From: an uncultured Myxococcales bacterium
GTDB lineage: Bacteria > Myxococcota_A > Polyangia > Polyangiales > Polyangiaceae
Length of the DNA: 64,000 bases
Direction: 5' to 3'
Assembly (NCBI GenBank): GCA_937902985.1
Contig: CALFNG010000399.1
Span: forward strand, 1-64,000
How positions within the stretch are numbered: position 1 is the stretch's first letter; each line of letters starts with the position of its first letter. The notes under the pieces were generated by a model. The model saw nothing but the letters and a program-made list of their open reading frames with translations. It was not told the origin of the DNA and did not search any database. Below are positions 42,769-52,500 of the stretch, in pieces. The translations under genes were made by a program, and so were the position numbers.

Positions 42769-43962
42769 TCAGCCTTCACGGGAGCGACCATGTGCATCGT
42801 TCGGCGTATCGTTCGGCGTATCGTTCGGCGAATCGTCGGTCTGGATGTCCTTGATGGCACTCTTCAAGCTCAAGGCGTTCTCGAGGGTCCTGGCCCAGAA
42901 CGGCGCGCCCATCGACAGGAGAAGGCTCGAGAAGCCCAACCCGGCCAGCCAGCCACCGATGCTCACCACCCAGCCGAAGCACGACGGCGGCACGACCCCG
43001 GCAACGGGGGGGCACTTTCGAGCGGCGACGCACATCGCCTCCGCGATCCAGCTGTGCTGCCAGCCAAGTCCCAGATCCGGCTGGTCGAGCAGCGAGACCA
43101 GCGCGCCGACGTCGGCCGTAGCGTGCGGCGTCGTGCCATCGGGCGCCTGACTGTCCGGCGCCACGTTCTTGTTTGCCTTGTCGACCCCATGGGTCGCGGG
43201 CGGCGCGCTGTCGAGCAAAGCTTCACGGGATGTCGGCAAAGGAGCACGCTCGTCCGTCGCGCCGGATCGACGGCCCATGTCCTGAAGGTCCGGCGCCCTC
43301 TGCGCCAGATCGTCGCGCAGACCTGGCTTGCCATAAAGGTTCGCAACGAGCCGGAAGCCGTCCATGTTCAAGACGACCACGACGATGCAGGCGAGCACCG
43401 CCGTCAGGCGCTTCGACGCCTTCTTGAATTGATCCGTGCTCACGGCCTCGGTCGTCTCGAACCACTGCTCGATGTAGAAGACGAGCGCGGCGAGGCTTCG
43501 TTTCTCGGCGGCCAACGAGTTGCACCATCGCTGGGGAAACTCGCCCAGCAGTGGTTTTTGCGAGTAAGTCTGACCGTTCAAACGACAAACGATCTCAAGC
43601 AAATCTGCCTTTGCGATGTATTCGACGCTCTGCGCTGCCTTCTGCCGACTCGCCTCGATCTTGCTGGCGTCTCCCCCCATGCGCGAGACCGGCGCCGAGA
43701 GCTTCGCGGCCGGGTGCAGCATGGGGTAGGTCAAGATGTCGGTCACGAACGCGGATTGCGGGGCGTCCCCCGCGTCTGCAGGGTCTCCGTTTTCGAGACG
43801 AAAGCCGATATTGAGAGCCCCGACCATCTCGCCGAGCGAGCGACCTCGGACGTTCCCCAGGTAGTGAACCAGGCGAACGAGGTACATGATGATGATGCTG
43901 ACCGCCAGCATGATGGCCGAAAAGGCGACAGCCGTACCGATGAGGGTCCCGAGAAATGTCAT
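42769..43962 (-). CDS. Membrane protein of unknown function (397 aa)
   Basis: N-terminal membrane segment (LIGTAVAFSAIMLAVSIIIMY), a second near residue 185 (LTAVLACIVVVVLNMDGF) and a third near 340-365 (FGWVVSIGGWLAGLGFSS). The domain between the first two is helical. Not recognised. GAAGGA lies 10 nt before the ATG. It lies 34 bp after the catalase/cytochrome gene and 56 bp before the FHA gene. The C-terminus carries an Asn-Asp-Thr-Pro repeat encoded by a 12-bp tandem repeat. Confidence 0.7.
   Translation of the reverse strand: MTFLGTLIGTAVAFSAIMLAVSIIIMYLVRLVHYLGNVRGRSLGEMVGALNIGFRLENGDPADAGDAPQSAFVTDILTYPMLHPAAKLSAPVSRMGGDASKIEASRQKAAQSVEYIAKADLLEIVCRLNGQTYSQKPLLGEFPQRWCNSLAAEKRSLAALVFYIEQWFETTEAVSTDQFKKASKRLTAVLACIVVVVLNMDGFRLVANLYGKPGLRDDLAQRAPDLQDMGRRSGATDERAPLPTSREALLDSAPPATHGVDKANKNVAPDSQAPDGTTPHATADVGALVSLLDQPDLGLGWQHSWIAEAMCVAARKCPPVAGVVPPSCFGWVVSIGGWLAGLGFSSLLLSMGAPFWARTLENALSLKSAIKDIQTDDSPNDTPNDTPNDAHGRSREG
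42796..42831. repeat. 12-bp tandem repeat (3 copies)
   Basis: ATCGTTCGGCGT x3, the last with one change, near the 3' end of the 42769-43962 gene. It encodes NDTP repeats on the minus strand and stays in frame. Confidence 0.8.
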
Positions 43963-43996: not shown

Positions 43997-46816
43997 TCAT
44001 AGGGTTTGAAGGTACGCGATCAGCGCCTCCTGGTCGGCGCCGTTGACCTCCGGGATACCGCCCCCTTCGGGCGCCGCGGAGTGGCCGGACGAGCTATTTC
44101 CGGGTGCAGCGGTATCGAAGAGAAATAACGGCATGCCGGCCGACATGGACTCATGCCAGGCAAAGCCCCCCTCCTTCTGGAGATATTCGGCGCTGCCCCG
44201 ATAGAACGTCGCAGGCCGGGCCTTGTCCGGGCCCAGCAGAAACGCAAGCGTCGGCACGGATCCGTTGTGAAGGTAAGGCGCCCGCGCCCACACGCCATCG
44301 AGCGGCGGGCAAAGATAGCCCGTCGTCGGCGTGAAGGCCTGCCGATACCAGAGGCCCGCCCCCGCGCCGAAGGCGTTGAGCTTCTCTATGAACCCATCGG
44401 CATTGGTGGCGTTCACCCGGAACGGGTCGGTTCTGATGGGTGTGGGCTGGACCATGCAGCCGCCGGGAAGACCCTGTAGGCGACCGTTCTCGTAAGTCCC
44501 GTGACAGGTGGCGCACCCTGAATTGTTGTAGACATTCGCTCCCGCGTCGACCAGATCCTTGCGTGAGGGGAATGGGTACGGCGGAGACGGCAAGTTCTTC
44601 TCGAGCCAGGTATTGATCTGCTGCACTTCGTATCGACGAATCGACAGTTTGTCGCCGCCGATCCCTACGACGGCGCCGTAACTCCTCGCCATCACGTCGT
44701 GCGTGTTTCCGTCCCAGTGATGGAGCGGCCGCCACTCGTCTCCTTGGTGCCAGATCGACGGCAAGTCGACCGTCGAGATGTGCGTCGTGTCGGTGACGTC
44801 GCTCCCTGGAAACAGAAACTCGAAGCGCAGGGCCCCGAACGCATCGAGGCGACCGGGCCCGTTGAGGGGCCGGTGGCGCATCCAGCTGATCCGGTCGGTC
44901 GCCGATTCGGCCAGGATCACTTTGACGATTTGCCTGTAGACCTCGACCTCCAACCAGTCGAGCGCCGACGGCGTGGGCGACTTGTCGGCGAGGAAGGGCG
45001 TCCTCGCGTGCTCTTTGGCGAGGAGCGCGTTGACGGCGCCGATCACCGTGTCTTCGGTGAACCCCGGATCCCGGAAGGAGTCGAACGCCGCCATCTTGAA
45101 ACCGGCTGTATCGAGCCGCTGGCTCGGCATTCCGTCGACGAAGTGAGGCTTCCCCAGGTCATCGAGGTATTCGCCTCGATGGCACGAGGCGCAGTTCAAG
45201 GACACCCGCTTCAACGCGACGCCCACCTCGTTGCCGCCGAGACTGAACACCGTGTCCGAGACGATGAGCCCTCGCGGGAGGCGATGGTAGTCGGTGTAGA
45301 AGTCCTGGTCGTCGCTGACGTCGAAGCCGAACTTCGACCAGTCTTCGCGGTGGTCGAACCGCGCGGGGAACATGAGCGGGAGCGCGCGAAAGATCCAGTA
45401 GGGTATTCCGCTGTTTGCTTCGGCCCCCACGGGAGAGTAGCGAAAGGTCCAGACGGGGTTCTCGGCGAACGGCTTCCCGGAATAAGAGGGATTGACCATC
45501 GCCGGAGGGATCAAGCCTTCGGAGGGCAACAGCGCGCCCAGCGGCAGCATGAGGGGGCGAACGAGGCCTCCCGGGCTGCAATGCCCGTATGCCAGCACGA
45601 GCACCAGGAGGATCGGCGCGACAACGAAGCCTTGCGGGCTCGACAAGAACGCCTCGATCAGGCGCCCCGTGCCCGGAAAGAGGTGCACGAAGCCGTTCAG
45701 GAGCATCGCGCCGACGCCCGGGACCGGATATTCGTCAGGCGACCACGCCGCTCCGGTCTCGTCGTCTTTGAGCTTCTTCCACTCGTCTTCCGTGTACGCC
45801 GGTGGCGGACCGTTCACCGAATTGGCCGTGGAGCGGAGCGACGCCGTTGCCTTGTAGACGAACAGGCGCGCCTGGTTGATGCTCCCCTGCGGCTCGTGCT
45901 GGCTCGTCCCGTTGTAAGGGTTGAACGAGAGTCTCTCGGCAAAATCGTTCCGTGTCTTCGTCGCCAGCGTCTGCTTCGGGACGATCACGCGAGCGACCGT
46001 GATGAATGGGTACTTGACGCCGTCCCACACCTGGGTCGCGTCGTCGATCTCGTCGGGGGGTATCTCGGCGATCCGTCTCGGTTGAATCTCGAAGCGGAAG
46101 ACGAAGTCTTTCCCGGCACCACTTTGATCCTGGATGCGTCCGCGAAGCGCCTCGTGGAGATAGTTCGAAGTGGCTCGCTTCGAGCTGCTCTTCGGGACCG
46201 GCTCGTCCGGTCGCAACCGGTACTTCACCAGCCACTCGCTGCCGAGCTTGTACGGCGTCTGACTGAAGTAGGTGAGGTCCAGCGGACTATCGGCCTGAGC
46301 CGAAGTCATGGCCACGGTGGCCGCCAGCCCCGCCAGCCGTCCGGGCGAAGCGAAGAACGTCGACGGGAACGCGTCGTCTGCCTGGAGCCGGGCGGCGATG
46401 ACCATGTCGGCGGCGTTCCGCGCGAAGAACGCGGGGCCGTTGAGCAGGACGAAGTCTTGCGTGTCGCGCTGAGGAGCATCCGCGATGAGTCGCTCGCCGG
46501 GGACGGCGAGGAGCTTGATCGCCACGCCCCGTCCGTCGGGTATCGTGTCGGACTGCGGGGTGGAGCTGCTGTTCGAGAAGCGGATCCAGGCCTTGAAGGG
46601 CATCTCGCTTCGGGCGAAGACGCCGATCTGGTACGCGGCGTCGAGCTGGTCGTCGACCTCGAAGAGCGCGGCCACGCATCCGTGGTGCTTTGCGTGAACG
46701 TCGCGGCGAGCGTTCGCGGGAAAGTCTGGCCGTTCTGTGACGACGCGGCGAGCCGAGTCGACGATGCTCTCGATGTCCGGGGTCGGCACGGACGCGGGCA
46801 CGTTCGGCTGGATCAT
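43997..46816 (-). CDS. Catalase-like haem enzyme fused to di-haem cytochrome c
   Basis: 939 residues. Residues 1-335 form a small catalase-related domain: VHAK at 40-43 (His41 as distal His), WIRFSNSSSTPQSD, DGRGVAIKLL, and RLFVYKATASLR with Tyr321 as proximal haem ligand. A hydrophobic segment (about 397-410) follows. The rest is a di-haem cytochrome c of the peroxidase/methylamine-utilisation type, with CASCH (542-546) and CATCH (768-772). Both parts look intact. There is no N-terminal signal, so the catalase part should be cytoplasmic and the cytochrome part periplasmic, joined through the membrane helix (inference). First gene of a three-gene operon. Confidence 0.85.
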   Translation of the reverse strand: MIQPNVPASVPTPDIESIVDSARRVVTERPDFPANARRDVHAKHHGCVAALFEVDDQLDAAYQIGVFARSEMPFKAWIRFSNSSSTPQSDTIPDGRGVAIKLLAVPGERLIADAPQRDTQDFVLLNGPAFFARNAADMVIAARLQADDAFPSTFFASPGRLAGLAATVAMTSAQADSPLDLTYFSQTPYKLGSEWLVKYRLRPDEPVPKSSSKRATSNYLHEALRGRIQDQSGAGKDFVFRFEIQPRRIAEIPPDEIDDATQVWDGVKYPFITVARVIVPKQTLATKTRNDFAERLSFNPYNGTSQHEPQGSINQARLFVYKATASLRSTANSVNGPPPAYTEDEWKKLKDDETGAAWSPDEYPVPGVGAMLLNGFVHLFPGTGRLIEAFLSSPQGFVVAPILLVLVLAYGHCSPGGLVRPLMLPLGALLPSEGLIPPAMVNPSYSGKPFAENPVWTFRYSPVGAEANSGIPYWIFRALPLMFPARFDHREDWSKFGFDVSDDQDFYTDYHRLPRGLIVSDTVFSLGGNEVGVALKRVSLNCASCHRGEYLDDLGKPHFVDGMPSQRLDTAGFKMAAFDSFRDPGFTEDTVIGAVNALLAKEHARTPFLADKSPTPSALDWLEVEVYRQIVKVILAESATDRISWMRHRPLNGPGRLDAFGALRFEFLFPGSDVTDTTHISTVDLPSIWHQGDEWRPLHHWDGNTHDVMARSYGAVVGIGGDKLSIRRYEVQQINTWLEKNLPSPPYPFPSRKDLVDAGANVYNNSGCATCHGTYENGRLQGLPGGCMVQPTPIRTDPFRVNATNADGFIEKLNAFGAGAGLWYRQAFTPTTGYLCPPLDGVWARAPYLHNGSVPTLAFLLGPDKARPATFYRGSAEYLQKEGGFAWHESMSAGMPLFLFDTAAPGNSSSGHSAAPEGGGIPEVNGADQEALIAYLQTL

Positions 46817-46975: not shown

Positions 46976-49900
46976 GTGGGTGAGGCAGGAAGTCCCGGCT
47001 ACGGGAGGCCGTTTCCGAGTGTCAGGGGCTACGCGATCGAAGACGTTCTGGGGGAAGGGGGAATGGGGGTCGTCTATCGGGCGCGCGAGCTCGAGACGAA
47101 GCAGGCCGTAGCGCTCAAGATGCTGAAGCGCACCGATCCCACGGGCATCTATCGCTTGAAGCGCGAGTTTCGAACGCTCGCCGATGTCGTTCACCCGAAC
47201 CTCGTGCGCCTTCACGAGCTCCGGTGCGAAGACTCCGTCTGGTTTTTTACGATGGATCTCATCGCCGGTCGCTCCTTTCATCAGTTTCTGAAATTCGACC
47301 GATGGAGCGCGGTTCCACCGCCTTCGGGGGTGACGGAAACGATTGACGTCATAAGCGAGACCTCGGGCCCGCGGGCCGCGAGGCGCCCCGACTCGCTCGA
47401 CGAGACCAGGTTACGGCGCTGCTTCGTCCAGCTCGCCCGCGGCGTCGCGGCGATTCACCAGGCAGGCAAGGTCCACTGCGACATCAAGCCGTCGAATCTG
47501 ATGGTCACGGAAGACGAGCGCCTCGTCGTGCTGGATTTTGGCATCAGCAGCAGCTTTGGCCAGGACGATCCCTTCGCGACCCGCGACGGATGGAACGCGG
47601 GGACGCCCCTCTACATGTCTCCCGAACAGGCGGCCGGCGAGGCCCTCGGACCGGCCTCGGACTGGTACGCGGTGGGGACCGTCCTCTACGAGGTCCTCAC
47701 AGGGGCGCTTCCGTTCTCGGGGGCCACGCCCTTCGTCATCGCACGGAAGCGCAGCGAGACGCCGCCACGGCCAAGCGCCTTGCGACCGGACGTACCGGCC
47801 GACCTCGACGCGCTGTGCATGGATCTCCTCGCCCACGAGGCAAGTCGCCGCCCCACGGGCGAACAGGTCATCGCGCGTCTCGAGAGCCCGGCTGCGCCAC
47901 GGCGGTCGCCTTCTTCCGGGCTCGAACGAGCTCCGGTCCCGGGGGAGCGGGCGAACGCCTGGATAGGCCGCGCCATGGAGCTCGCCTGGCTGAGAGCGGC
48001 CGCCAACCACGTGCAGGCCTCACGGCCCGTCGTCGCTCTGGTCATGGGGGCTTCCGGGATCGGAAAGAGCGAGCTCGTGCACGCGTTCGGGCGAGAGCTC
48101 CGGGCCGACGCGGGGGTCCTCGTCCTCGGCGGCCGTTGCTACGAGTCCGAGTCCGTTCCGAACAAGGCCATCGACCCGCTCATCGACGAGCTATCCAGGT
48201 TCTTGCGTCGACTGAGCGACCAGGAGGCCGCCGAGCTCCTTCCTCGCGACATACGCGCGCTCGCGCGGGTGTTTCCCGTTCTCGACCGCGTGCCGGCGAT
48301 CCAGACCGCGAGCGGTCGACCGGCCGAGGGTGACCTCGCCGAGGTGCGGCGGCGGGCGTCACGCGCGCTGAAGGAGCTCCTCGATCGCCTCGCCGACCGA
48401 TGGCGGGTGGTCCTCATCGTCGACGACGCGCAGTGGGGCGACGTCGATAGCGCGCGTCTGCTCCTCGAGGCCCTCGAGCCGCCCGATACCCCGGGTGTGC
48501 TCGTCATCCTGGCGGCGCGCGACGTCGACCCCGAGCGCAGCCCGATGCTCCGTGCGCTGCTCGACGCCAAGGAAGGCGCGATCGTCGCGCCGTTCGTTCG
48601 CCGTCTGCAGGTGACGGCCATGGATCGCGACGAGGCGTCCCGGCTGGCTGCGACGTTCCTCGGCCACGAGGCGACCGACGAGCTGTCGGCTGCGGTCGCC
48701 GAGGAGTCCGGCGGCAATCCATTCTTCGTCCGCGAGCTCGCGCTCCACGCGCGGGGCGGCGAAGGCCAGAAGCCGGAGGTCGGTTCGCGCCTCCGACTGG
48801 AATCGATCCTGCGCGAGCGAATCGAAGCCCTTCCCCGCGATCTGCGGGCGATGCTCGAGCTCGTCGCGGTCTCGGGCCAGCCGGTCTCGGAGGCGACGAT
48901 GGGACGCTTGAGCGCGTCCGGGTCGCCCAGAGCGTCGCAGTGGACGGCGCTGAGCGACGCGCACCTCATTCGGCTCGCCGGGGCCGCGAGCGATCGCAGC
49001 GTCGAGTGCTTTCACGACCGCGTACGGGAAGTGGCCATCGCGGCGATGCCGCCCGAGCGCACCTCCGAGTGCCACGGACTCCTCGCGGGGGCTCTCGAGA
49101 AGAGCGGCGATGCCGACCCCGAAGTGCTCCTCGAGCACTATCGACTGGCGGGAGACCTCGACTCCGCTCGCAAGCACGTCCTCGCGTCGGCGGATGCGGC
49201 GCGGAGCGCGCTCGCCTTCTCGCGCGCAGCCCGGCTCTATCAGATGTCGCTCGACCTCGTGCCCGTCGAGCAATGGGCTCGCCTCGAGCTCGAACGTCGC
49301 CTGGCCGAAGCGCTGGCCCTCGACGGCCGGCTGCGGCAAGCCGCGGCGGCCTACAGCGCCGCGGCGGAGCGAGCGGAGGGCCTCGAGGCCATCACGCTTC
49401 GCCGCTTGTCCGCGCAGCATTTCCTCACCAGCGGCGACCGCGAGCGGGGCCTGGAGGTGCTGGAGCGCGTCATGCGCGACGTGGGACTCAAGTACCCCTC
49501 GACGCCGACCCTCGCCCTCGGCCGGCTCGCCTGGGCGCGCGCGAAGCTTCGCGTCGGGGGGCTGCGCTTCGAGGAACGCGTCGCCGCCGAGGTGCCCCCG
49601 CTCGATCTCGCGCGCGCTGACGTGTGCTTCTCCGCGGCGGCCGGCCTGTCGATGAACGACCTGGCGCGCACGGCCGCCCTCTCGGCCGAGCACCTGGTGC
49701 TTGCTCTGCGCACGGGCGAGCCTACGCGAATCGCGAGAGGCCTCGCATTCGAGATGGGCGTCGCGCCCGGCGCCGGGGCCGAAGGCCTGCGCTGGGCCGA
49801 TCGCGCGCTGCCGGTGGCCGAGCGATTGAGCGAGCGGCACGACGACAGCTACCACCGAGGCCTCTTCTTCCTCGCGCAGGGCTACGTCGCCTACCTGAGC

Positions 49901-50764
49901 GGGCAGTGGAAGGCGGCCGTCGACTGGCTGCTTCGGGCCGAGATTGACCTGCGCAGCCCGCAGGCGACCGACGTGCAGTGGGCCCTCCTCTCGTGCAACA
50001 TGCTCACCCTGAACGCCTGCGCGGTCTCGGGCGACCTGCAGACCGTCGAGACCCGGCTGCACGTGCTGATGAAAGAGGCGCGGCAGCGCGACGACCTCCA
50101 CGGCCCTTCCCTCTTCGTGTACCCGAGCGTCGTCCTGCATCTCTCGCGCGATCGGGTCGACGCGGCGCGCGCGCTCCTGCACGAGACGGCCCGGGACCAG
50201 CCGGCCGACGCGTTCGATCTGCGAGACTTCACCGCTCTCCATTGCGCGCTGCTCGTCGACCGGTACGTCGGTCAACCGCGCGCGGCCTGGCGACGACTGG
50301 AAGAGAAGTGGCCCGCCATCACGCGCTCGAAGATCCTCGTCGTGAACGTCGTTCGAACGGCGCTCCTCGCCGAGCGCGGCACGGCGGCCCTAGCGATGGC
50401 GACCGGGCGAGACGCGGCCCATCACCTCCGCGTCGCGAAGGATTGCGCGAAGCAGCTCTTGCAAGACAAGCTGCCCTACTCGCGAGCGCTGGGGCGCGTC
50501 ATGCAGGGTCGCATCCATCGCGTCCTCGGCGACGGGCCGCGCGCGCTCTCCACCCTGACCGACGCGAGCGTCGACCTTCACTTCGTCGGCCTGGCGGGTC
50601 AAGCGCTGTGCGCTCGCCGGGCGCTCGGCTGCATGAAGGGGGGCAACGTGGGCCGCGTTCTCGTCGAAGAAATGGACGCCGCCCTCCGGAAAGAGGGGGT
50701 CGTGGACCCTGCTCGCTTCGCCGAGCTGATGATTCCCGGCTTCGCCACGTCGTTGCCCGGCTAG
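46976..50764 (+). CDS. Ser/Thr protein kinase with AAA ATPase and TPR-like region (PknK type)
   Basis: 1262 residues. Kinase domain at about 18-300: GEGGMGVVY loop, Lys48 in VALK, catalytic Asp169 in HCDIKPSN, DFG 187-189, and MSPEQ. An AAA_16-like ATPase follows with Walker A GASGIGKS (358-365) and a LIVDDAQWGD Walker B. The C-terminal 600 residues are helical repeats. The family links environmental signals to transcription in myxobacteria. GTG start preceded by GAAGGG. It is divergent from the catalase-FHA operon (159 bp); the FHA protein is a candidate partner. Confidence 0.92.
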   Translation: MGEAGSPGYGRPFPSVRGYAIEDVLGEGGMGVVYRARELETKQAVALKMLKRTDPTGIYRLKREFRTLADVVHPNLVRLHELRCEDSVWFFTMDLIAGRSFHQFLKFDRWSAVPPPSGVTETIDVISETSGPRAARRPDSLDETRLRRCFVQLARGVAAIHQAGKVHCDIKPSNLMVTEDERLVVLDFGISSSFGQDDPFATRDGWNAGTPLYMSPEQAAGEALGPASDWYAVGTVLYEVLTGALPFSGATPFVIARKRSETPPRPSALRPDVPADLDALCMDLLAHEASRRPTGEQVIARLESPAAPRRSPSSGLERAPVPGERANAWIGRAMELAWLRAAANHVQASRPVVALVMGASGIGKSELVHAFGRELRADAGVLVLGGRCYESESVPNKAIDPLIDELSRFLRRLSDQEAAELLPRDIRALARVFPVLDRVPAIQTASGRPAEGDLAEVRRRASRALKELLDRLADRWRVVLIVDDAQWGDVDSARLLLEALEPPDTPGVLVILAARDVDPERSPMLRALLDAKEGAIVAPFVRRLQVTAMDRDEASRLAATFLGHEATDELSAAVAEESGGNPFFVRELALHARGGEGQKPEVGSRLRLESILRERIEALPRDLRAMLELVAVSGQPVSEATMGRLSASGSPRASQWTALSDAHLIRLAGAASDRSVECFHDRVREVAIAAMPPERTSECHGLLAGALEKSGDADPEVLLEHYRLAGDLDSARKHVLASADAARSALAFSRAARLYQMSLDLVPVEQWARLELERRLAEALALDGRLRQAAAAYSAAAERAEGLEAITLRRLSAQHFLTSGDRERGLEVLERVMRDVGLKYPSTPTLALGRLAWARAKLRVGGLRFEERVAAEVPPLDLARADVCFSAAAGLSMNDLARTAALSAEHLVLALRTGEPTRIARGLAFEMGVAPGAGAEGLRWADRALPVAERLSERHDDSYHRGLFFLAQGYVAYLSGQWKAAVDWLLRAEIDLRSPQATDVQWALLSCNMLTLNACAVSGDLQTVETRLHVLMKEARQRDDLHGPSLFVYPSVVLHLSRDRVDAARALLHETARDQPADAFDLRDFTALHCALLVDRYVGQPRAAWRRLEEKWPAITRSKILVVNVVRTALLAERGTAALAMATGRDAAHHLRVAKDCAKQLLQDKLPYSRALGRVMQGRIHRVLGDGPRALSTLTDASVDLHFVGLAGQALCARRALGCMKGGNVGRVLVEEMDAALRKEGVVDPARFAELMIPGFATSLPG

Positions 50765-50985: not shown

Positions 50986-52176
50986 CTAGCCGGTGGTCTT
51001 CCAGGGAAGGGTCCCGCCGAGCATGAGGCTGTCGGCGTCTTTCTGGCCCATTTCGATCAGCGCGCTCAAGAATTTCGGCTCGAAAAAGAGAAAGCTCAGG
51101 AGCTCGTCGTGGGTCGGCCCCTCGTTGCCGATCAGCCGGCTGATCACGCTGAACGTGGAGAGCGGCCAGCGCCGCTTCGCCCCGAAGATCTCGCCGGCCT
51201 TCTTGGCGAGGTGTCCCCGCCACGGAGGGCCGAAGTAGCAGTGGTCGAGCACCTGAAACGAGTGGCCGGCGGTGCGGACGTCCGGCACGCGCTTCTTCTG
51301 GCTGGCCTCGACGAGGGCGTTCACCCGGCGCAGCGACTGGACGTCTTCCGCGACGCGGTCGACGAGGTTCGCGTAGATGATCGCGATCCCCTCGCCGAGA
51401 ATGTCGGGGCGGCGGCTGACGACCGGCCGGGACGACCGCTTCGGCACCTGATTCGGATCGGGCTCGGTGGACACGACGACGACGCGGTTGTTCCGTCCCG
51501 GAGCGACCTTCTCGAGGAGCTCGATGGCCGGTGCGATCGGCGTATTGAGGCGGACTCCACCGTCCACGAACCAGTTGCTCCCGAGAACGTTGACGCTCGG
51601 GAACAGGACGGGGATCGCGGCGGACGCGAGGACGTGATCCGGCGCCAGCACGGCGCGCCGGTACTCGATGTCGCGGGCTTGATTCGCCCGGGGCAAGTTG
51701 GTTCCGAGCCCCTCCACGAAGACAATGCTCTTTCCGCTCTCGACCTCGGTCGCCACGATGCCCGCGGCCTTCAGCCAGCCGGTCTCGAACTTGGCGCTCA
51801 GCGTGGCCCAGTCGACATGGCCACCGTCGGTCACGGTGCCGCGGAGCGGGGTGGTGTCGAAGAGCGCGCAGGCGTGCTTTCGAGAGAAGCCAATCGCTTG
51901 CGCGGCGTAGGCCGGGAGCGCCGCGCGATCGAGCGTGAAGACGCTGCTGACATCGAGCGTGCGCCACGCCGCGAGGAGGCGGTCGGCGATGGCGGCGGCG
52001 CTCTCGTTGGCCGCCCCGGCGGCGATCGCGGCGTTGATGGCCCCGGCGCTGGTGCCGACCAGGACGATCTCGGCTTCGCGCTCCTCGTCGATCAGCTTGG
52101 GCAAGACGCGCGAAAGAACCCCCGCTTCGTATGCGCCTCGCGCTCCCGCTCCCGCCGTTACTATCGCCGTGGCCAT
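50986..52176 (-). CDS. Patatin-like phospholipase
   Basis: 396 residues. Patatin hydrolase with oxyanion loop GAGARGAYEAG (residues about 8-18), nucleophile elbow GTSAG (Ser about 42) and the catalytic-dyad Asp in DGGVRLNTP. It should deacylate phospholipids. The C-terminal third is unassigned. No signal peptide, so it acts on the inner membrane from the cytoplasm or is delivered elsewhere. It is divergent from the phosphoesterase/TIR operon. Patatin enzymes are frequent membrane-damaging effectors of bacterial defence systems, but housekeeping versions are also common. Confidence 0.9.
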   Translation of the reverse strand: MATAIVTAGAGARGAYEAGVLSRVLPKLIDEEREAEIVLVGTSAGAINAAIAAGAANESAAAIADRLLAAWRTLDVSSVFTLDRAALPAYAAQAIGFSRKHACALFDTTPLRGTVTDGGHVDWATLSAKFETGWLKAAGIVATEVESGKSIVFVEGLGTNLPRANQARDIEYRRAVLAPDHVLASAAIPVLFPSVNVLGSNWFVDGGVRLNTPIAPAIELLEKVAPGRNNRVVVVSTEPDPNQVPKRSSRPVVSRRPDILGEGIAIIYANLVDRVAEDVQSLRRVNALVEASQKKRVPDVRTAGHSFQVLDHCYFGPPWRGHLAKKAGEIFGAKRRWPLSTFSVISRLIGNEGPTHDELLSFLFFEPKFLSALIEMGQKDADSLMLGGTLPWKTTG

Positions 52177-52500
52177 GACCAAGATCCTCGGGTCACCCAC
52201 CGAGCCAGCCTCGGTATGACGAAACAAGAGCGCACCCATCCATCACTCGTCTCGAGCGCGAACGCCGACCCTCGTCTGCCTCTGTCAATCGCTCGCTGGT
52301 GAGGAAATAAACATCCCTCTTTCTTCGCCCGCCCTTTTACGCGTGCGCGGCTGCGGCCAAAGGAATGGTGACCGGCTCGTCGAGCTTCTTGAGTGATTCG
52401 TGCGCCAGCGTGCAAGTAACCCCCGCACGGCCACCGCGGCCATAGTCCTTTCTTTCGGGAGGTTTTTTGCTATCGCGCGCTGCGCGGGCTCGGGTGTCCC

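Follow-up and report, generated by a model that had tools for sequence, protein, structure and literature searches.

An uncultured Myxococcales bacterium encodes in a single chain a catalase-like domain, probably of the y4iL type, and a di-haem domain of the RoxA / CytoC_perox kind, which are connected via one membrane helix. The gene is located on the minus strand (43997..46816) of the window, i.e., the entire stretch of 64,000 nucleotides analysed, and codes for 939 amino acids followed by a stop. Both haem families are already known, and it is their combination which is new. The fusion has so far been seen in one genome, with support from a module of separate genes in relatives.

The fusion gene and its two haem domains

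The open frame of 939 codons plus stop contains no internal stop codon, and its product is the sole match in the genome, a draft assembly of 8.3 Mb in 563 contigs. Pfam, NCBIfam and hydropathy agree on the succession of catalase-like domain, membrane helix and di-haem cytochrome described in an earlier note on this DNA, which had not given the (minus) strand. The start at 46816 provides the catalase part with a length matching that of separate relatives. An upstream ATG at 47281 was rejected, since it would overlap the divergent gene upstream of the fusion (46976-50764, plus strand; start at 46976), which codes for a serine/threonine kinase with an AAA_16 domain. A shadow ORF was rejected on the basis of codon periodicity and homologues. 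Third-position GC periodicity is continuous across the joint (GC3 of 0.85, 0.86 and 0.82 for catalase part, linker and cytochrome part, respectively), and codon usage of the two halves correlates at 0.84. An assembly chimera is therefore unlikely, as is the missed stop or frameshift which the earlier note had considered fatal to its reading. Judged from the draft assembly sequence, the joint is taken as a real fusion.

The catalase-like domain (residues 1-340; 45797..46816, minus strand) was assigned from Pfam, the solved structure 3e4w, fold matches and invariant residues. Pfam Catalase matches residues 38-333 with 38.0 bits (cutoff 25). The haem pocket of the catalase superfamily is complete, comprising the RxxxY motif R317-Y321 (Y321, 45854-45856, minus strand), the distal histidine H41 (46694-46696, minus strand) and R38, R79 and R328. 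Six residues invariant in 39 of 39 relatives (R38, R79, S81, R317, Y321, R328) are all kept, as are H41 (32 of 39 relatives) and N126 (23 of 39). Overall, the domain retains 36 of 39 highly conserved positions and has lost W301, which is 97 % conserved among relatives. V40, preceding the distal histidine, is a catalase-like residue, unlike that of coral allene oxide synthase (AOS). A five-sequence profile retrieved 3e4w, a catalase-related 33-kDa protein from Mycobacterium avium paratuberculosis, as best solved sequence match, followed by true catalases and coral AOS. The structure model (mean pLDDT 59.7, pTM 0.69) yielded 184 Foldseek matches at E<=0.001, the best 50 of which are all catalase-fold. 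In a tree of 40 catalase-like domains, that of the window belongs to no well-supported group and has the longest end branch (1.37, median 0.36), which together with the intact pocket indicates that the domain evolved fast while keeping its haem site.

Similarity to the y4iL gene of Sinorhizobium NGR234, along with the tree, suggests assignment to the y4iL type (cd08152), as the earlier note had proposed. The two proteins are alike in length, haem-pocket residues and neighbouring di-haem genes, and share 31 % identity over two pieces. There the genes are separate, whereas the domain encoded in the window has diverged far more and is joined to a membrane anchor plus a di-haem domain.

The di-haem domain (residues 409-939; 44000..45592, minus strand) was delimited by Pfam, NCBIfam and alignments. 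Matches comprise Pfam Cytochrom_C (residues 757-782), Pfam RoxA-like_Cyt-c (residues 833-871; 64.3 bits, cutoff 26.7) and NCBIfam NF040606 (di-heme CytoC_perox). The latter exceeds its cutoff of 150 by a narrow margin (150.6 with the whole protein, 153.7 with the C-terminal half), in line with the di-haem peroxidase-type partner named before. By far the strongest solved match is RoxA (4b2n); a structure model of this half (mean pLDDT 50.9, pTM 0.53) gave no match under E 1.5. In a 19-sequence profile aligned to 4b2n, the haem c sites CASCH (542-546; 45179..45193, minus strand) and CATCH (768-772; 44501..44515, minus strand) fall on the two haem sites of RoxA; these sites, H41 and Y321 were all recovered at the positions noted earlier. 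Both residues typical of RoxA and FadCcp are present, i.e., the inter-haem tryptophan (W701, equivalent to RoxA W302; 44714..44716, minus strand; profile alignment to 4b2n) and the distal histidine of the second haem (H912 in GNSSSGH, equivalent to RoxA H641; 44081..44083, minus strand). PYLHNGSVP (847-855; 44252..44278, minus strand) corresponds to what has been named the 'MauG motif' in RoxA and PA2077 (PMC4496055, PMC10837239).

Two CXXCH sites, PYxHNGSVP and W302/H641 equivalents are thus shared with RoxA, RoxB, RoxC and Pseudomonas aeruginosa PA2077/PA2078 (FadCcp). These proteins, however, possess a cleaved signal peptide and no catalase domain, whereas the window protein is helix-anchored and carries one. 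FadCcp was likened to the C-terminal half by its published description, and the oleate dioxygenase/diol synthase activity is that of FadCcp. With the RoxA, RoxB and RoxC models, scores are 36-52 bits and thus far below the equivalog cutoffs (900-1000 bits), and the phenylalanine characteristic of rubber dioxygenases (RoxA F317) is replaced by V717 in the profile alignment to 4b2n. By these tests the domain is of the RoxA / CytoC_perox kind, and the low scores and V717 led to rejection of a rubber oxygenase identity. RoxA and RoxB carry Phe at the F317 position, while tested RoxC proteins have Ala there and Phe at the Trp position, and do not cleave rubber (PMC10837239).

Gene module in relatives and predicted topology

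A gene for a membrane protein of 397 amino acids with three predicted helices (42769..43962, minus strand) starts 34 bases past the stop of the fusion gene. The protein matched no Pfam family and is a homologue of the module protein of relatives, being 29-33 % identical to three aligned proteins encoded after the separate di-haem gene; no invariant histidine was found in this alignment.

The module was delineated with six separately encoded close relatives of the di-haem half, which come from genomes of the Polyangia type and show 37-41 % identity. Scanning of contigs retrieved 0 loci with a single-protein query and 8 loci with an alignment query, and the halves were aligned separately; a full-length joint alignment placed the C-terminal parts of the catalases in the cytochrome region. 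All six close loci contain a gene for a membrane protein of 360-410 amino acids directly after the di-haem gene, and four of the six have a y4iL-type catalase gene within one or two genes of it, located downstream in three Sorangium genomes and divergently in JAIOQA010000102; in the remaining two (L054, L056), the surroundings of the di-haem gene lack a catalase gene. The Sorangium cases represent one lineage, leaving two independent arrangements in addition to the fusion. The membrane protein was detected in ten genomes of the class, six of which, including that of the window, also encode the di-haem clade; in the four without this clade, the genes next to it gave no further clue.

Whole-protein queries covered overlapping samples of 377 phylum, 108 family, 183 order and 317 class genomes of Myxococcota, and in the larger samples scoring was confined to the few best candidates of each genome. 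A second catalase/di-haem fusion was not found in these four samples, and none of 168 matching plasmid records covers 80 % of the fusion in one place. The genome samples and module loci bear out the expectation that the two proteins are usually encoded separately. Lack of similar fusions in relatives, named beforehand as refuting the reading, is literally what the samples show; the conserved separate-gene module nevertheless makes it credible that partners which were associated before have truly been fused.

The module would also account for the predicted topology. A linker (residues 341-389) and a single membrane helix (residues 390-408; 45593-45649) connect both halves (45593..45796, minus strand), as judged from hydropathy, flanking charges and the N-termini of relatives. 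The helix, at about 390-408, is the only strongly hydrophobic one of the protein (KD mean 2.05), and its own positive-inside bias is weak. Separate di-haem relatives begin with a short tail and 2-4 positive residues by one helix, followed by the haem domain; this is an N-in anchor pattern which would place the haem domain in the periplasm. The separate catalases of the module have no N-terminal hydrophobic stretch or signal peptide, and signal-peptide-like N-termini occur in some other y4iL-type catalases of the phylum (L002, L012, L052). Tail-helix-haem order and signal-less catalases suggest that each half of the fusion keeps its usual compartment. From hydropathy prediction, the fusion would swap the short tail of the di-haem protein for the catalase domain, and topology no longer poses the puzzle previously seen in it. 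A secreted catalase domain was discarded, as its N-terminus shows no hydrophobic stretch.

Related fusions and gene neighbourhoods

Fusions of y4iL-type domains with other oxidising enzymes occur elsewhere in Myxococcota. Two are with lipoxygenases (L065:2030-4774, L066:1182-4232), and in three genomes the domain is N-terminal to a LodA-like quinoprotein (L064:2147-5164, L069:872-3886 and, by sequence likeness, L068:1930-5154). In frames of 1300-1360 amino acids it forms the C-terminus (L061:968-5038, L062:4207-8235, L063:3806-7711); L061 harbours DyP peroxidase domains by Pfam, and L062 and L063 are alike by sequence. At a further locus (L067:1509-3794), a catalase-like domain precedes a long repeated-looking stretch without Pfam match.

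Genes for a di-haem RoxA-like protein, a catalase family protein and an animal haem peroxidase are consecutive on a Paracoccus yeei plasmid (L041:4975-9451). In Sinorhizobium NGR234, y4iL is flanked by di-haem genes and followed by a gene that weakly matches patatin-like proteins, and in Methylobacterium currus a peroxidase-family gene is paired with a catalase-family gene. The neighbours in P. yeei and NGR234 and the lipoxygenase, LodA and DyP fusions point to a context of hydroperoxide chemistry. At another locus (L049:5331-10858, genome G443), a class 3 lipase gene adjoins two di-haem CytoC_perox-type genes.

Fusions of y4iL-type domains to LodA enzymes, which make H2O2, have been published (PMC4417212), as have cyanobacterial fusions of catalase with LOX and with haem dioxygenase (PMC11719350). 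Hydroperoxides of fatty acids are known substrates of catalase-related proteins that occur alongside lipoxygenases or haem dioxygenases (PMC11719350, PMC13049297), coral cAOS being a catalase-related example of such conversion (PMC5617202). The catalase-LOX and AOS-LOX fusions of cyanobacteria and corals and the y4iL-LodA fusions resemble the window protein in their N-terminal catalase-fold domain on an oxidising enzyme (PMC5617202, PMC11719350, PMC4417212); here, by contrast, the partner is a di-haem c-type enzyme across a membrane helix. A catalase-related 10S-hydroperoxide lyase working with a 10S-dioxygenase in cyanobacteria likewise places a catalase-related protein beside a haem dioxygenase; as described in PMC13049297, however, that dioxygenase is COX-like and encoded by a separate gene, whereas the window enzyme is di-haem c-type and fused.

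Proposed function and alternative explanations

The reading tentatively put forward from sequence comparison is that of a di-haem enzyme which oxidises lipids in the periplasm and is tethered to a domain converting hydroperoxides in the cytoplasm. The C-terminal half would be a membrane-anchored periplasmic enzyme of the RoxA / fatty-acid-dioxygenase kind. By analogy to RoxA, its first haem may be an open site binding oxygen or peroxide, and the second, ligated by H772 and H912, may pass electrons via W701. The N-terminal half would be a cytoplasmic Tyr-ligated haem enzyme, most likely acting on hydroperoxides as a lyase, isomerase or peroxidase and not as a classical catalase. The fusion and the membrane protein encoded downstream would jointly oxidise unsaturated lipids of the membrane, or comparable hydrophobic substrates, and the resulting hydroperoxide would be processed at the same membrane. 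Substrate class, order of reactions and transfer of the product to the other side of the membrane are presumed.

Intact haem pockets in both halves and conservation of the module, which occurs in two lineages with differing gene order, count in favour of lipid-hydroperoxide processing. So does the published conversion of fatty-acid hydroperoxides by catalase-related proteins next to dioxygenases or lipoxygenases. Lipid oxidation is also supported by the di-haem relatives, as RoxA oxygenates rubber (PMC10837239) and PA2077 is a 10S-dioxygenase of oleic acid, in which both Trp and Phe are kept and both haems are needed (PMC4496055). On the opposing side, V717 replaces the essential F317 of RoxA, and RoxC, also devoid of this Phe, is rubber-inactive; V40 is catalase-like rather than coral-AOS-like. 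Further counterpoints are the predicted location of the active sites on opposite sides of the membrane, the two relatives without a nearby catalase gene and the absence of any fatty-acid gene inside the module. Moreover, no substrate or activity is to our knowledge known for y4iL and this di-haem clade, which counts against the proposal as well.

Formation of oxylipins, raised as an alternative in the earlier note, would receive indirect support from the lipoxygenase fusions, the animal-haem-peroxidase neighbours and the published catalase-related hydroperoxide enzymes. The most novel version would be an oxylipin machine made of one chain, whose periplasmic di-haem dioxygenase and cytoplasmic catalase-fold hydroperoxide enzyme pass a lipid product across the membrane, helped by a new three-helix membrane protein family; it is speculative and on balance unlikely.

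A serious rival to lipid-hydroperoxide processing, though itself somewhat unlikely, is peroxide defence by a two-sided shield, in which H2O2 or organic peroxides are reduced in the periplasm by a cytochrome c peroxidase, while those inside the cell are removed by the cytoplasmic half. It agrees with the NF040606 name of the C-terminal half (di-heme cytochrome C peroxidase, just over cutoff), with the catalase fold including V40-H41 and R317-Y321 as in catalases, and with the fusion of y4iL-type domains to H2O2-producing LodA enzymes (PMC4417212). The C-terminal half, however, belongs to a RoxA-like clade (RoxA-like_Cyt-c; 4b2n strongest) and not to the classical short peroxidases, and the nearest solved catalase-fold sequence, 3e4w, is no true catalase.

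It is doubtful that the cytoplasmic catalase-like enzyme is merely tethered to a membrane complex, with unlinked reactions or a decaying catalase domain. Occurrence of the fusion in a single genome so far, the longest end branch among 40 domains and the loss of the otherwise conserved W301 would fit such a course, but the domain retains every haem-pocket residue and differs at just three of 39 highly conserved positions.

Coupling of cytoplasmic peroxide chemistry to electron transfer in the periplasm by way of the single chain, as earlier envisaged, could draw on two intact haem sites in one chain and is nonetheless very improbable. Neither a haem site within the fusion helix nor an invariant histidine in the partner membrane protein was found, leaving such coupling unsupported. 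A transmembrane haem relay was dismissed, as the single helix offers no ligands, and relatives encode the partners as two proteins, one soluble and the other anchored. An assembly chimera or a missed stop joining two genes can hardly be entertained: the genome is a 563-contig draft and a second fusion was not found in the sampled genomes, but frame and codon periodicity run on through the joint, and the gene that follows codes for the membrane protein belonging to the module.

The natural fusion of neighbours suggests that y4iL-type and RoxA-like di-haem proteins act in one pathway. It further names the downstream membrane protein as third partner, so that a single gene cluster would suffice to probe what the three proteins do. 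Past the kinase gene, four kilobases from the fusion, the window also contains a patatin-like phospholipase gene (50986-52239, minus strand), which is possibly unrelated.
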